Below are positions 3,330 through 7,284 of a stretch of 54,612 nt of DNA, piece by piece. The notes under the pieces were generated by a model. The model was given only the letters and a program-made list of their open reading frames with translations. It was not told where the DNA came from and searched no databases. The position numbers and the translations under genes are program-made. The stretch covers positions 1 through 54,612 of the forward strand of contig NZ_JAEUXI010000008.1 in the NCBI RefSeq assembly GCF_016775005.1, read 5' to 3'. Positions within the stretch are counted from its first letter, which is position 1. Each line of letters begins with the position of its first letter. This DNA is from Streptococcus suis (GTDB taxonomy: Bacteria > Bacillota > Bacilli > Lactobacillales > Streptococcaceae).

Positions 3330-3341
3330 TAGTATAACGTC

Positions 3342-3368
3342 AAAACCCCTTGCTAAACAAGGGGTTTT
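3342..3368 (+). terminator. Terminator after tRNA-Thr
   Basis: AAAACCCCTTG and CAAGGGGTTTT form an 11-bp stem around a 5-nt loop, ending in a T-run. About 160 further bases (3371-3530) up to the next promoter show no gene. Confidence 0.9.
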
Positions 3369-3533
3369 GTTTTTATTTTACCAAGCAGTTTTCCAGAAAT
3401 TTAAAAAAATATTCCTCTTGATGTAGCTGATGGATGGTTCCTATTTAGCAAAGGCAGAAAGTTGGTCGGATGTGAGCGAATGAGTGTTGAGATAGTTTGA
3501 TAAAACAAAGTTTTCTAAAAATGGAAAAATAGC

Positions 3534-3561
3534 TTGACAGATGGTTTCAGTATGTTAGAAT
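3534..3561 (+). promoter_or_regulatory. Promoter of the satAB leader transcript
   Basis: TTGACA (3534-3539) and TAGAAT (3556-3561) lie 16 bp apart. Transcription would begin near 3568, giving a leader of roughly 250 nt before satA. Confidence 0.7.
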
Positions 3562-3585
3562 AGGGGCAAGGTAATAACTAGAAAT

Positions 3586-3728
3586 GAAAGGAGAACATCA
3601 TGAATACATTCGTAAGTTTGACAACTACTGTATTACATTACCAGACTCTCCTTTCTAAGCCAAGACCTTAGTTTCTTTTTGTGGACTTGAGGGGCCCGGG
3701 ACGGAGTGTATTCTGTCTCGGCTTTTTT
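3586..3728 (+). promoter_or_regulatory. Putative transcription attenuator upstream of satA
   Basis: Three competing pairings can be drawn. (1) GAAAGGAGA (3586-3594) is perfectly complementary to TCTCCTTTC (3647-3655) at the end of the leader ORF. (2) Terminator: CCGGGACGGA (3696-3705) with TCTGTCTCGG (3712-3721), 10 pairs including three G-U, followed by six T. (3) Antiterminator: AAGCCAAGAC (3657-3666) with GTCTCGGCTT (3715-3724), 9 of 10 pairs, which uses the terminator's 3' arm. A ribosome paused at the leader stop codon would mask 3657-3666 and favour termination. Poor or stalled translation would free it and allow readthrough. A further complement of the same strand occurs at 3733-3744 with one bulge. 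Confidence 0.65.
3600..3671 (+). CDS. Leader peptide of the satAB operon
   Basis: A 23-codon ORF beginning MNTFVSLTTTVLHYQ and ending SKPRP, with ATG at 3600 and TAG at 3669-3671. A strong Shine-Dalgarno sequence (AAAGGAGA, 3587-3594) sits 5 nt before the ATG. The peptide is unlikely to be functional in itself; its translation is probably what matters. Its 3' part contains both a perfect complement of its own ribosome binding site and the strand that can compete with the downstream terminator. It resembles leaders that control antibiotic-inducible ABC genes. The mechanism is inferred. Confidence 0.7.
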   Translation: MNTFVSLTTTVLHYQTLLSKPRP

Positions 3729-3817
3729 GTGTGTCTTGGGCTTATTTATTTGAGGGTTGCAAGGCTTGGGACTAGGACATTCTTGGTGAAGAAAGGATAA
3801 AAGGAGAAGGAGATTAT

Positions 3818-5548
3818 ATGTTTCGACTAATTTTTGACTATGTCAAGCAGCACAAGTGGCTCTACTTGCTGGTTGCTGTGACTTTGATTATTTACGATGC
3901 CACGCTTTTGGTGCCGACTCAGATTATTCAGCGTATGGTGGATACCTTGACCAGTCAGGGCTTGACAGAGTCCCGCTTGGTCCAAGATATGACCCTGCTT
4001 TTCTTGGTGACCTTGCTCAACTATGCTATGGCTTTTATCTGGCACCTCAAGCTCTTTCAGGCTTCGGTCAATTTCAAGTTTGAGATGCAGCAGCGGGCCT
4101 TTCGTAAAATGGTGGTTATGCGGACCCCTTTCTATGAAAAATTCCGCTCAGGCGACATCATGACCCGCTTTTCAACGGACGTGGACGGCCTTATGGAAAT
4201 GGTGGGCTACGGCCTCATGATTGTGGTCTATGCAGGTGGTATGCTGGCCTTCATCATCCCGACCATGTTCTTGATTGACTGGAAGATTTCCTTCTGGGCG
4301 ATTTTGCCCATGCTGGCCATGACGGTTTGTATCTTCTTTATCGGTCGCAAACAGGACCAGGCTATTGAGGAAAACCGTGAGGCTGTTGCGGCCCTCAATA
4401 CCGAAGTCTTGGAAGTAGTCGAGGGCATTCGCGTGACCAGAGCTTATAGCAAAAAGGCTAGTCAGGAGGCTAAGTTCCAAGAAAAGACTAGACGACTGGC
4501 CCAAGGTGGTAACCGCATCACCTCCCTCCAGTCCCTCTACAATCCGCTAGCCACGGTCTTTCTGGCCCTGTCCAATGCGGCGGTCCTCCTCTTAGGAGCC
4601 CAGGCCCTGCAAAATGGAGACCTCAGTCTTGGTCAGGTCATCGCCCTCCAGCTCTATGTCAGCTCTCTCCTTGAGCCCTTCTGGACCCTGGCCGACTTCA
4701 TCCTGGTTTATCAGACAGGCAAGACCTCCTTTGAGAAGTTGCAGGAACTCATCGACACAGGGGACGACTTGGAGGTGGACGGCTCTAGTTCAATAGCAGA
4801 GCTGGCTAGCATTTCCTTCAAGAATTATAGCTTTAGCTATCCACAGGCAGAACGGGCTAGCATTTCAGACATTAACTGGACCCTGACGGCAGGTCAGACA
4901 GTTGGTATCGTTGGAAAGACCGGCTCAGGCAAGACCACCTTGGTCCGTCAGCTGCTCCGTCAGTATCCAGTCGGCCAGGGAGAATTTGTCATCAACGGTC
5001 AACCTATTTTAGAGATAGAACGTGCTTCAATCGAGGAAAAAATCGGCTACGTTCCCCAAGAGCATATCCTCTTTTCCAAGTCTGTGGGCGAAAACATTGC
5101 TTTGGGCAAGCTGGATAGCAGTCCTGAGGAAATCCAGCAAGCCATTGCCACAGCAGCCTTTACCAAGGACTTGGAGCGGATGAGTGACGGACTGGATACC
5201 ATGATTGGTGAGCGGGGGGTGTCCATTTCTGGCGGTCAGAAGCAACGGATTTCCATTGCCCGTGCTTTCCTGCGAGAGCCAGACTTGCTGATCCTAGACG
5301 ATTCTCTGTCGGCAGTCGATGCTCGGACAGAACGCCAGATTATCCAAAACATTCAAAAAGAGCGTGCGGGCAAGACTAATGTCATCGTGACTCACCGCCT
5401 GTCTGCTGTCAACCATGCGGACTGGGTGCTGGTTTTAGATGAGGGGCGGATCGTCGAGGAAGGGCGGCCGGCCGACTTGCTTGCACAAGAGGGCTGGTAC
5501 TATGAACAATACCAACGCCAACAAAGTCAGGAAGGAGGGGAAGAATGA
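3818..5548 (+). CDS. satA: Heterodimeric ABC multidrug exporter subunit SatA (PatA-like)
   Basis: An ABC half-transporter of 576 residues: a six-helix type I exporter domain (about 1-310) followed by a nucleotide-binding domain. The Walker A motif GKTGSGKT lies at about 369-376, the signature ISGGQKQR near 469, Walker B LLILDD near 490, and the H-loop THRLS follows. The catalytic Glu after Walker B is Asp (LDDSLSAVD), which marks this as the degenerate-site subunit of an asymmetric pair. It matches the SatA/PatA family, which with its partner exports fluoroquinolones and dyes in S. suis and S. pneumoniae. The start follows AAAAGGAGAAGGAG. The stop overlaps satB by 4 nt (ATGA). Expression appears to be set by the upstream attenuator. 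The symbol is not to be confused with sialic acid transporter genes sometimes also called satABC. Confidence 0.9.
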   Translation: MFRLIFDYVKQHKWLYLLVAVTLIIYDATLLVPTQIIQRMVDTLTSQGLTESRLVQDMTLLFLVTLLNYAMAFIWHLKLFQASVNFKFEMQQRAFRKMVVMRTPFYEKFRSGDIMTRFSTDVDGLMEMVGYGLMIVVYAGGMLAFIIPTMFLIDWKISFWAILPMLAMTVCIFFIGRKQDQAIEENREAVAALNTEVLEVVEGIRVTRAYSKKASQEAKFQEKTRRLAQGGNRITSLQSLYNPLATVFLALSNAAVLLLGAQALQNGDLSLGQVIALQLYVSSLLEPFWTLADFILVYQTGKTSFEKLQELIDTGDDLEVDGSSSIAELASISFKNYSFSYPQAERASISDINWTLTAGQTVGIVGKTGSGKTTLVRQLLRQYPVGQGEFVINGQPILEIERASIEEKIGYVPQEHILFSKSVGENIALGKLDSSPEEIQQAIATAAFTKDLERMSDGLDTMIGERGVSISGGQKQRISIARAFLREPDLLILDDSLSAVDARTERQIIQNIQKERAGKTNVIVTHRLSAVNHADWVLVLDEGRIVEEGRPADLLAQEGWYYEQYQRQQSQEGGEE

Positions 5549-7284
5549 GCGTTATCGGTTATTTATTAAAAGAAATCAAGCGGGTCAAGTGGCTCTTTCT
5601 GGCGGCGGTGGCTGTCTATCTGCTAGCCTCTACCCTGGTCCGCTTTGCTCCCCTGATCTTGCAGGGCTTGATTGACGGGCCTCTGACAGCAATCAGTAAG
5701 GGAACGACCTTGGATCAGGCTGTCTTTCTGAGGGAATTGGGCGTATATATGCTCATGAATGCCTTTGGTGCCCTTGGTTTTTATGCTTCTATGCGTCTGC
5801 TCATGTTCTGTGCCAACGGTATTGCGGAGCAGTTACGGAATCGGGCCTATGATGTCATGCAGCGGCTGCCGATTTCCTACTTTGATGACAAGCCAGCGGG
5901 TAAGATTGCCACACGGATTGTCAATGATACGGAGACCTTGCGGACCCAGTTTTATGGGACCTTGGTCTATGCTTTTAACAACATTGTCCGCCTGATCTTC
6001 ACCTATGGCATTCTTTTCTATATGAATGCGACCTTGGGCTTTGTCCTTCTCGTGCTGATTCCCCTCTATATCGGGATTCAGTATGCCTATAAGAAGATGA
6101 CCGACAAGCCGATGAAGGACTTCTATGATGCCAGAAGTGATGTCAATACCCAGGTCAATGAAACCATGAACGGTGCCAGCCTGATTCAGCTTTTTGGTCA
6201 GGAACAGCGGGTTATGGAGGAGTTTGAAGCGACGGCAGACAAGATGCGGCGGGCGGACAACAAGATTATCTGGGCCCAGTCCATTGCGACTTGGAACTTG
6301 ACCGAGTTCTTGAAATATCTGGTCATCACAGGGATTTTGACCATTGTGGGCTACCAATTCCTCAAGGGTCAGTTGGACCTGTCGCCTGGTCGTCTCTTCG
6401 TTTATATCAACTATATTGAAGGGGTCTTTATCGCCCTCGGTGCCCTCGTTCAGCAATTCCCCAACCTCCTGCGTTCCTTAGAAACAGGTAAGCGGGTCAA
6501 GGGCCTCTTGGAAGAAGCAACAGAGACAGATAGCAGTGCTGAGCTGACAGTGACAGACGGTCAGGTGGTCTTTGACCAGGTCACCTTTGCCTATGAAGTT
6601 GGTAAGCCTATTCTCAAGGACATTGTCATTCAGGCAGACAAGGGGGAAACCATTGCCCTGGTCGGCCACACAGGCTCTGGCAAGTCGTCCATTATGAACC
6701 TGCTCTATCGTTTCTACGATCCCCAAGAAGGTCGGGTTTTGATTGACGGGAAAAACATCCGTGACTATTCAAGGGAAAGCCTGCGTAGTCACATGGGGAT
6801 TGTCCTACAAGATCCGTATCTCTTCACCGGCACAATCGCCAGCAACGTAGCCATGAACGAGGAAGAAGCGGATAGGGAGAAGATTGCCCAGTCGCTTGAA
6901 AAAGTTGGTGCAGGACCCATGCTGGCTCGATTAGAAAAAGGCATGGATGAGCCCGTTGTCGAAAAAGGTGCATCCTTCTCTAGCGGTGAGCGGCAGTTGA
7001 TTGCCTTTGCCCGCACCCTTTACTCCGATCCAAAAATCTTGATACTGGATGAGGCGACTTCTCATATCGATACGGAGACAGAAGAGATCATCCAACACGC
7101 TATGGAAGTGGTCAAGGAAGGGCGGACCACCTTTATCATCGCCCACCGCCTCTCTACCATTCAAAACGCAGATCAGATTTTGGTCTTGGACCAAGGACGC
7201 ATCATCGAACGTGGCAGACATGAGGACCTGATTGAGCAGGGCGGTGTCTATGCCCAGATGCATGACATACAATCTAGGGTTTAG
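5545..7284 (+). CDS. satB: Heterodimeric ABC multidrug exporter subunit SatB (PatB-like)
   Basis: The 579-residue partner of SatA with the same order: membrane domain about 1-320, then an ATPase domain. Walker A is GHTGSGKSS, Walker B is ILILDEATSHID with the catalytic Glu present, and the H-loop is AHRLS. The signature motif is FSSGERQ rather than LSGGQ. In the SatA-SatB dimer this degenerate signature would face the Asp-containing site of SatA, leaving one good and one poor ATP site, as in BmrCD and PatAB. The ATG overlaps the satA stop, and GGAGGGGAAG supplies the ribosome binding site. No terminator with a clear stem was found directly after it. Confidence 0.9.
   Translation: MSVIGYLLKEIKRVKWLFLAAVAVYLLASTLVRFAPLILQGLIDGPLTAISKGTTLDQAVFLRELGVYMLMNAFGALGFYASMRLLMFCANGIAEQLRNRAYDVMQRLPISYFDDKPAGKIATRIVNDTETLRTQFYGTLVYAFNNIVRLIFTYGILFYMNATLGFVLLVLIPLYIGIQYAYKKMTDKPMKDFYDARSDVNTQVNETMNGASLIQLFGQEQRVMEEFEATADKMRRADNKIIWAQSIATWNLTEFLKYLVITGILTIVGYQFLKGQLDLSPGRLFVYINYIEGVFIALGALVQQFPNLLRSLETGKRVKGLLEEATETDSSAELTVTDGQVVFDQVTFAYEVGKPILKDIVIQADKGETIALVGHTGSGKSSIMNLLYRFYDPQEGRVLIDGKNIRDYSRESLRSHMGIVLQDPYLFTGTIASNVAMNEEEADREKIAQSLEKVGAGPMLARLEKGMDEPVVEKGASFSSGERQLIAFARTLYSDPKILILDEATSHIDTETEEIIQHAMEVVKEGRTTFIIAHRLSTIQNADQILVLDQGRIIERGRHEDLIEQGGVYAQMHDIQSRV

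Follow-up and report, generated by a model that had tools for sequence, protein, structure and literature searches.

What decides whether transcription passes from a short leader into the genes of an ABC exporter in Streptococcus suis? The question is raised by positions 3534–3817 of a contig of 54,612 nucleotides (NZ_JAEUXI010000008.1), the whole of which is referred to as the window. A first-pass annotation had named the exporter satAB, had pointed to the attenuator of pneumococcal patAB, and had placed before the exporter a ribosome-dependent attenuator in which a ribosome at the leader stop codon covers an antiterminator strand, with the result that active translation gives termination and impaired translation gives readthrough. 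Our reading of the same region differs in both the pump and the switch. From sequence comparison and predicted folds, the leader is probably a trp-like transcription attenuator which senses ribosomes held at the start of the leader and which controls a pump of the TetAB(46)/TrexAB type, with tetracycline as the likely inducer.

Among the literature matches listed, no title concerned the leader of TetAB(46) or TrexAB. The main text of the TrexAB paper (PMC12256430), which describes the pump and not the leader, contains no match for 'promoter', 'terminator' or 'induc'. The scheme proposed here would provide a testable mechanism for the regulation of a chromosomal tetracycline-type pump in animal and oral streptococci, a point which lies outside the scope of that paper.

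Identity of the pump

The two halves of the pump are encoded by overlapping genes and give their best family scores with the A and B components of Tet(46) (Table 1). Neither half passes the curated Tet(46) models of NCBIfam, for which the cut-off is 1250, and as the scores fall below this value we call the pump Tet(46)-like and not Tet(46). The loci of S. australis and S. parasanguinis are approximately 61% identical to the window pump, and its best match in the PDB is YheI/BmrC, half of a Bacillus subtilis pump. In the excerpted text of PMC12256430, TrexA and TrexB share 55 and 59% identity with TetA(46) and TetB(46), respectively, homologs of 60–75% are given for S. suis and other species, and knockout of trexAB lowers the tetracycline MIC by 16- to 32-fold. 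Judged by sequence, the window pump is TetAB(46)/TrexAB-like, that is, of the same type as TetAB(46) of S. australis and TrexAB of S. dysgalactiae, and by analogy with these its substrate is presumably of the tetracycline type.

The pump named in the first-pass annotation lies elsewhere in the same genome. An excerpt of PMC9241815 describes satA of S. suis as lying behind the MarR gene satR, the two overlapping by eight bases. No MarR ORF that overlaps the pump gene is present directly 5′ of the window pump. On another contig a Pfam MarR ORF does overlap a pump gene (locus L050, contig G000:C14), by 14 bases when counted from the first ATG of the pump ORF and by eight when counted from the second. 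This MarR-linked pair (G000:C14, approximately 159.1–163.0 kb; L050:1044–3192) is separate from the window pump. For the comparison with PatA, the published patA leader oligonucleotide was used as the query; it matched 87 of 284 genomes, and two PatA loci in which 66 of the 74 oligonucleotide bases matched exactly were picked and their PatA fragments compared. Each fragment shares 64% identity with L050 and 26% with the window pump. The overlap and the PatA identity make it likely that L050 is the satRAB locus. With Tet(46) as the best family, the satRAB layout on another contig and only 26% identity to PatA, an assignment of the window pump to satAB/patAB is ruled out.

Organization of the leader region

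Table 1. Features of the pump locus in the window
Feature	Position	Strand	Basis
Predicted promoter, TTGACA-16-TAGAAT, second hexamer preceded by TG	3534–3561	+	Matches to consensus, 11/12
Region 1, leader Shine–Dalgarno sequence (SD), GAAAGGAGA	3586–3594	+	GAAAGGAG in 97/99 streptococcal leaders
Leader ORF, 23 codons, peptide MNTFVSLTTTVLHYQTLLSKPRP, ending LLSKPRP-stop	3600–3671	+	ORF before 99/104 orthologs
Region 2, putative switch strand (anti-SD), complementary to regions 1 and 3	3645–3656	+	Predicted pairs, swap tests
Predicted middle hairpin, takes in the T-rich stretch 3′ of the leader stop	3659–3695	+	Folds without a ribosome and with one at the start codon
Region 3, 5′ arm of the terminator with its loop, SD-like GGAG, putative partner of region 2	3698–3709	+	Predicted pairs, swap tests
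Intrinsic terminator, stem 3696–3721 followed by the T run CTTTTTTG	3696–3727	+	Terminator swap test, z −14.9, 38 clusters
Pump half A, ABC exporter, TetA(46)/TrexA-like	3818–5548	+	Best family Tet(46) A, 852.7 bits
Pump half B, ABC exporter, TetB(46)/TrexB-like	5545–7284	+	Best family Tet(46) B, 811.6 bits

As shown in Table 1, a predicted promoter, a short leader ORF with its own SD and an intrinsic terminator precede the pump genes, and the coordinates and letters given for these elements in the first-pass annotation hold. A scan of 2 kb returned six promoter-like sites, compared with 3.1 in shuffled sequences, and letters identical to those of the window promoter are found at L001, L003 and L086. 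In L002 the sequence 5′ of the SD looks unrelated to that of L001 and L003 and the leader from the SD onward is conserved, an arrangement that would fit a change of promoter.

The end of the leader does contain, as had been claimed, an exact complement of the SD: the 9 nt TCTCCTTTC at 3647–3655 match GAAAGGAGA throughout. Region 2 can also pair with region 3, through ten predicted pairs running from 3645:3709 to 3656:3698 with two mismatches, and this pairing (3645–3656 with 3698–3709) overlaps the 5′ arm of the terminator at 3696–3705. The second complementarity that had been pointed out, between AAGCCAAGAC (3657–3666) and GTCTCGGCTT in the terminator 3′ arm (3715–3724), is confirmed as letters at nine of ten positions. 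Since shuffling the leader codons 5000 times yields CTCCTTTC in 49 cases, and a match of at least 9/10 to the terminator 3′ arm arises in 39 of 5000 letter shuffles, the SD complement and the nine-of-ten pairing are each not strong on a single sequence.

A stretch of 12 nt that spans most of region 2, CTCCTTTCTAAG (3648–3659), is a piece of GGATCACCTCCTTTCTAAGG. The latter occurs once in this genome, and we take it to be the 3′ end of 16S rRNA together with its precursor. A search of the whole window against Rfam at the gathering threshold left the leader without a match; when E values of up to 1 were admitted over 3340–3900 there was nothing on 3560–3730, and the two sub-threshold matches were confined to 3340–3377.

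Directly 3′ of the leader stop lies the T-rich stretch TTTCTTTTTGTGGACTT (3669–3690), which recurs slightly altered in the S. suis/acidominimus group of a MAFFT alignment of the leaders (alignment A1, in which the SD region is poorly aligned). This stretch may make RNA polymerase pause, in the manner of the NusG-type pause motif. The letters of the middle hairpin are resembled in the same group of the alignment.

Conservation of the leader in Streptococcus

At a threshold of E ≤ 1e-140, orthologs of the pump were found in 104 of 284 Streptococcus genomes, and a regular-expression search of the upstream regions placed a leader ORF with an SD before 99 of them. The remaining five comprise one locus with zero upstream sequence (L091), one with 286 bases which was skipped (L102), one whose leader lies approximately 0.87 kb upstream, outside the reach of the expression (L100), and two which gave none (L175_G211 and L184_G110). 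Three loci were corrected by hand: the leader of L118_G283 was re-set, and for L110 and L111 the last candidate was chosen as terminator. The terminator of L186_G137 was kept as first called.

The anti-SD of the 99 leaders reads CTCCTTTC in 67, CTCCAAT in 25 that form one group of close relatives, CTCCTTT in six and CTTCTTTC in one. The distance from the start of CTCC to the end of the stop codon is 24 nt in 50 leaders, 27 nt in 25, 33 nt in 13 and some other value in 11. A scan for the exact motif AAAGGAG-N40-70-CTCCTTTCTAA gave 50 places, spread over 49 of the 284 genomes, compared with none for the reversed-pattern control. When the coordinates were compared by hand with those of the pump, 42 of the 50 places lay no more than 1 kb upstream of it, seven lay elsewhere and one was on a contig without the pump. 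Many of the streptococcal leaders end in LLS followed by a variable residue, and the remainder of the peptide is not conserved.

Several groups depart from the window in detail. In L092–L099 and L103–L110, which are of the S. suis type with pumps 82–86% identical, the distance from leader stop to terminator is approximately 122–127 nt, compared with 21 nt in the window group. The S. parasanguinis/australis group (L018–L034 and L037) has a second terminator-like hairpin after the first; its anti-SD is TTCTCCAATCTC, and the complementarity of this strand to GAGAAAGGAGAA is offset in register and interrupted by an internal loop. L006 and L009 have in common a repeat-like sequence between terminator and pump, and the same sequence is found in the opposite orientation 5′ of the pump in L013, on a contig in which no leader was seen.

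Strand-pairing tests

The 99 leaders were reduced to 38 clusters at 82% identity, and cognate strands were compared with strands swapped between clusters in 20,000 permutations; kinship is only partly corrected for in the resulting figures. Region 2 was taken as 16 nt on the 5′ side of CTCC and a further 8 nt, and region 3 as the terminator 5′ arm plus loop, and the two terminator arms served as the positive control (Table 1). Regions 2 and 3 pair better with their cognate partners (−9.22 kcal/mol) than with swapped ones (−8.23 kcal/mol), giving z of approximately −4.2 and p of 0.0001–0.0002 for the 38 clusters. The preference is retained on more divergent sets, with p values of 0.0001, 0.003 and 0.009 for 24, 11 and five clusters, respectively. 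The controls gave z values of +2.5 for region 2 against reversed region 3, +1.8 for reversed region 2 against region 3, −0.6 for the reverse complement and −0.8 to +1.0 for wrong partners. When region 2 was divided, the CTCCTTTC core alone gave z −2.2 and the upstream part alone z +0.4.

Pairing of the SD with the anti-SD (1:2) is strong in Streptococcus, with a mean of −12 kcal/mol. Its covariation within the genus is not significant (z −1.1, p 0.13) because the two strands are nearly invariant. The comparison of leaders across streptococci for covariation, which had been proposed as a check on the first-pass reading, was run as swap tests, and it supports the pairing of regions 2 and 3 while giving no support to the helix between 3657–3666 and 3715–3724 (z +0.71; see below).

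Predicted folds and the proposed switch

The folding of the leader was predicted for RNA in which region 3 has been made and region 4 has not, with assumed ribosome footprints masked and a helix counted as formed when it held at least four expected pairs. Without a ribosome, 1:2 formed in 36 of the 38 streptococcal representatives and 2:3 in ten. Masking of the SD and start codon by a ribosome reversed the result, giving 2:3 in all 38 and 1:2 in none. A ribosome around codon 5 gave 2:3 in 21 and 1:2 in 27, and one at the stop codon gave 2:3 in three and 1:2 in 18. For 29 leaders from outside the genus the folds gave 1:2 in 23 and 2:3 in two without a ribosome, 2:3 in only 19 when the ribosome sat at the start codon, and 2:3 in one and 1:2 in 19 when it sat at the stop.

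These predictions suggest the following switch, in which the SD is region 1, the anti-SD is region 2 and the arms of the terminator are regions 3 and 4. If no ribosome is loaded, 1:2 would form, region 3 would pair with the 3′ arm and transcription would end before the pump. A ribosome detained at the start codon and SD would cover region 1, leaving region 2 to form 2:3 once region 3 has been made; this pairing would take the 5′ arm of the terminator, and transcription would continue into the pump genes. Ribosomes that reach the stop codon would mask some of region 2, again leaving the terminator to form. Termination would therefore be the outcome of free translation and of no translation alike, and the pump would be opened only by a ribosome detained at the start of the leader. 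Tetracycline probably holds ribosomes near start codons. Because the pump belongs to the TetAB(46)/TrexAB type and tetracycline blocks ribosomes, this drug is the likely inducer. What the sequences show directly is the elements with their positions, their conservation and the pairing statistics; the cell states, the readthrough and the inducer are inferred.

The logic would be that of the E. coli trp-type attenuators, with the same four regions, the same alternatives 1:2, 2:3 and 3:4 and a ribosome which decides between them. In the trp type, however, region 1 is a run of regulatory codons, whereas in the window it is the leader's own SD, so the window leader would sense initiation or early elongation and not a given amino acid. 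The locus has the arrangement of a ribosome-mediated attenuator: a short ORF with an SD, predicted to be translated, lies 5′ of an intrinsic terminator and structural genes, and the predicted antiterminator uses a strand of the terminator and is mutually exclusive with it, although this feature is weak or absent in divergent non-streptococcal clusters. With a leader before nearly all of the streptococcal orthologs, a ribosome-dependent attenuator upstream of an efflux pump, as first proposed, is supported as a kind of mechanism. Two of its details change. Because the SD:anti-SD hairpin takes the antiterminator strand, an untranslated leader is predicted to terminate, and impaired translation would not give readthrough without limit. 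The SD:anti-SD pairing itself appears to be real; its description as an added, self-limiting layer is not supported, and it is better read as an anti-antiterminator at the core of the switch.

Another account would have a constitutive terminator set a low basal level of the pump, with the leader ORF and the SD:anti-SD pairing merely preventing wasteful translation. We consider this improbable. It is consistent with the fold of the full-length window leader, in which the terminator was obtained in every state tried, even with the start masked, and with the attenuator of patAB, which the excerpted text of PMC4319486 describes through terminator mutants, the inducing signal there being unknown. 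It leaves unexplained, however, both the cognate pairing of regions 2 and 3 and the frequent fixed distance of 24 nt between CTCC and the stop. As the terminator is more stable than 2:3 in the full-length RNA, the attenuator model favoured here needs 2:3 to form first, and timing must decide between the two.

Leaders outside Streptococcus

In an order-wide sample a relative of the pump (E ≤ 1e-130) was found in 121 of 395 genomes, 88 of which are outside Streptococcus. Upstream regions were taken for 40 of these 88 relatives, namely the best-scoring ones with G294 left out; 29 had a leader and a terminator, four had a leader without a called terminator and seven had none, one of the seven (L246) offering just 101 bases of sequence. 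The regular expression used here admitted some off-register leaders (for example L247 and L259), which were kept in the set. By sequence, related pumps from other Lactobacillales families appear to have comparable leaders before them.

The 1:2 pairing shows clear cognate preference in this set, with z values of −5.7 (29 leaders), −4.9 (25 clusters) and −4.5 (ten clusters), and of −5.0 for the streptococcal and other sets joined (21 clusters). An example of covariation is GGATGTC with GACATC in L256, and GATGTC behaves likewise in L257. For 2:3, wide windows gave z −4.0 for the 29 leaders, and narrower windows for regions 2 and 3, which yield the more conservative result, gave z −2.4 and p 0.012 for 25 clusters. 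The joined sets gave z −2.75 and p 0.0045 (21 clusters), and the preference is absent on the ten most divergent non-streptococcal clusters (z −0.19, p 0.42). The wrong-partner control of region 2 against the 3′ arm was borderline outside Streptococcus (z −1.7, p 0.049) and the others were null.

The bare pattern GAAAGGAG-N38-68-CTCCTTTC was found in 24 of the 395 genomes of the order, compared with five for the reversed control; being its own reverse complement, the motif is listed on both strands at each place. Outside Streptococcus it is not enriched (nine genomes versus five for the reversed control), so beyond the genus the argument is carried by the pairing tests and by the position before the pump. 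Inspection covered four of these nine genomes (G307, G321, G403 and G498, with G373, G423, G489, G551 and G576 left out), and in each of the four the match precedes a pump relative.

The motif is translated differently inside and outside the genus. It is read in frame 0 (LLS) in 65 of the 67 streptococcal leaders with CTCCTTTC, and in frame 1 (TPF, TPY and similar) in 17 of the 21 leaders with CTCCTT outside Streptococcus. As the motif is kept while its reading frame changes, selection appears to act on the RNA, and pairing of the RNA, not the leader peptide, appears to be the conserved property. For the same reason we set aside as very unlikely an arrest peptide, in which the LLS end would stall the ribosome late in the leader in the presence of drug, as in erm-type leaders. 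The recurrence of LLS and a variable residue at the end of many streptococcal leaders would fit such a peptide, but it is the nucleotides CTCCTT(TC) that are kept as the frame shifts to TPF/TPY in relatives, the other residues are not conserved and a ribosome at LLS would cover region 2, which favours termination.

Comparison with known attenuators and wider distribution

The window leader resembles that of bmrBCD in B. subtilis, in which a leader ORF and a terminator likewise precede a heterodimeric ABC exporter, and the two pumps are related. According to excerpts from PMC4191407, abolishing translation of the bmrB leader lowers expression, with more termination, and induction by lincomycin is lost in the start-codon mutant; the same is predicted for the window leader. 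The inducers given in these excerpts are chloramphenicol, erythromycin and lincomycin, with bmrC not induced by kanamycin or gentamicin, and tetracycline has no mention in the main text of that paper. Its authors, in the same excerpts, call the function of the bmrB anti-anti-terminator unclear. The switch proposed here suggests a role for that element and a reason for termination in untranslated leaders. The likeness has limits: bmrB is an ORF of 53 codons with the terminator inside it, whereas in the window the terminator follows the stop codon of a much shorter ORF (Table 1), and the window leader would therefore work like bmrB without being the same element. The anti-anti-terminator of bmrB was compared with regions 1 and 2 of the window, the SD and anti-SD, by description and not by sequence. 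The patAB attenuator of S. pneumoniae shares with the window a terminator before an ABC exporter, but the pump is different, a transcription start is predicted 67 bp before patA and no leader ORF is described in the excerpted text of PMC4319486.

The least probable of the alternatives, which we reject, is the one first proposed, in which AAGCCAAGAC pairs as antiterminator with the terminator 3′ arm, is covered by a ribosome at the stop and gives readthrough when the leader is untranslated: its nine-of-ten complementarity in the window, reached by few shuffles, and the same letters in L086 and L089 speak for it, but there is no cognate preference in any cluster set (z +0.71, +1.3, +1.2 and +1.5 for 38, 24, 11 and five streptococcal clusters; +2.0, +2.0 and +1.3 for 29 leaders, 25 clusters and ten clusters outside the genus; +1.5 for the sets joined), the cognate duplex amounts to only −2.7 kcal/mol in the L087 cluster versus −11.9 kcal/mol in the window, the expected number of pairs was zero in all five ribosome states in which the window leader was folded, and bmrB without translation terminates more (excerpts from PMC4191407).

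Beyond the single locus, we lean by a narrow preference towards a widespread, unnamed family of leader RNAs before exporters of the BmrCD/TetAB(46)/TrexAB type in the Lactobacillales and, by eye, in the wider Bacilli. In such leaders a copy of the 16S tail within a tiny ORF would be the switch strand, with ribosome, SD and terminator in competition, and a drug of the tetracycline type that holds ribosomes at the start would switch on its own pump. The SD:anti-SD pairing would then be the missing anti-antiterminator of the bmrB class.

In the wider Bacilli a pump relative (E ≤ 1e-125) was found in 52 of 151 genomes, and 25 loci were read by eye. At several of these, L285, L289 and L298 among them, the SD and its downstream complement seem to change together, for example as GGTAGGA/TCCTACC, and at some others no leader was evident. 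Such pairs hint that the SD:anti-SD element may have arisen before the order Lactobacillales.
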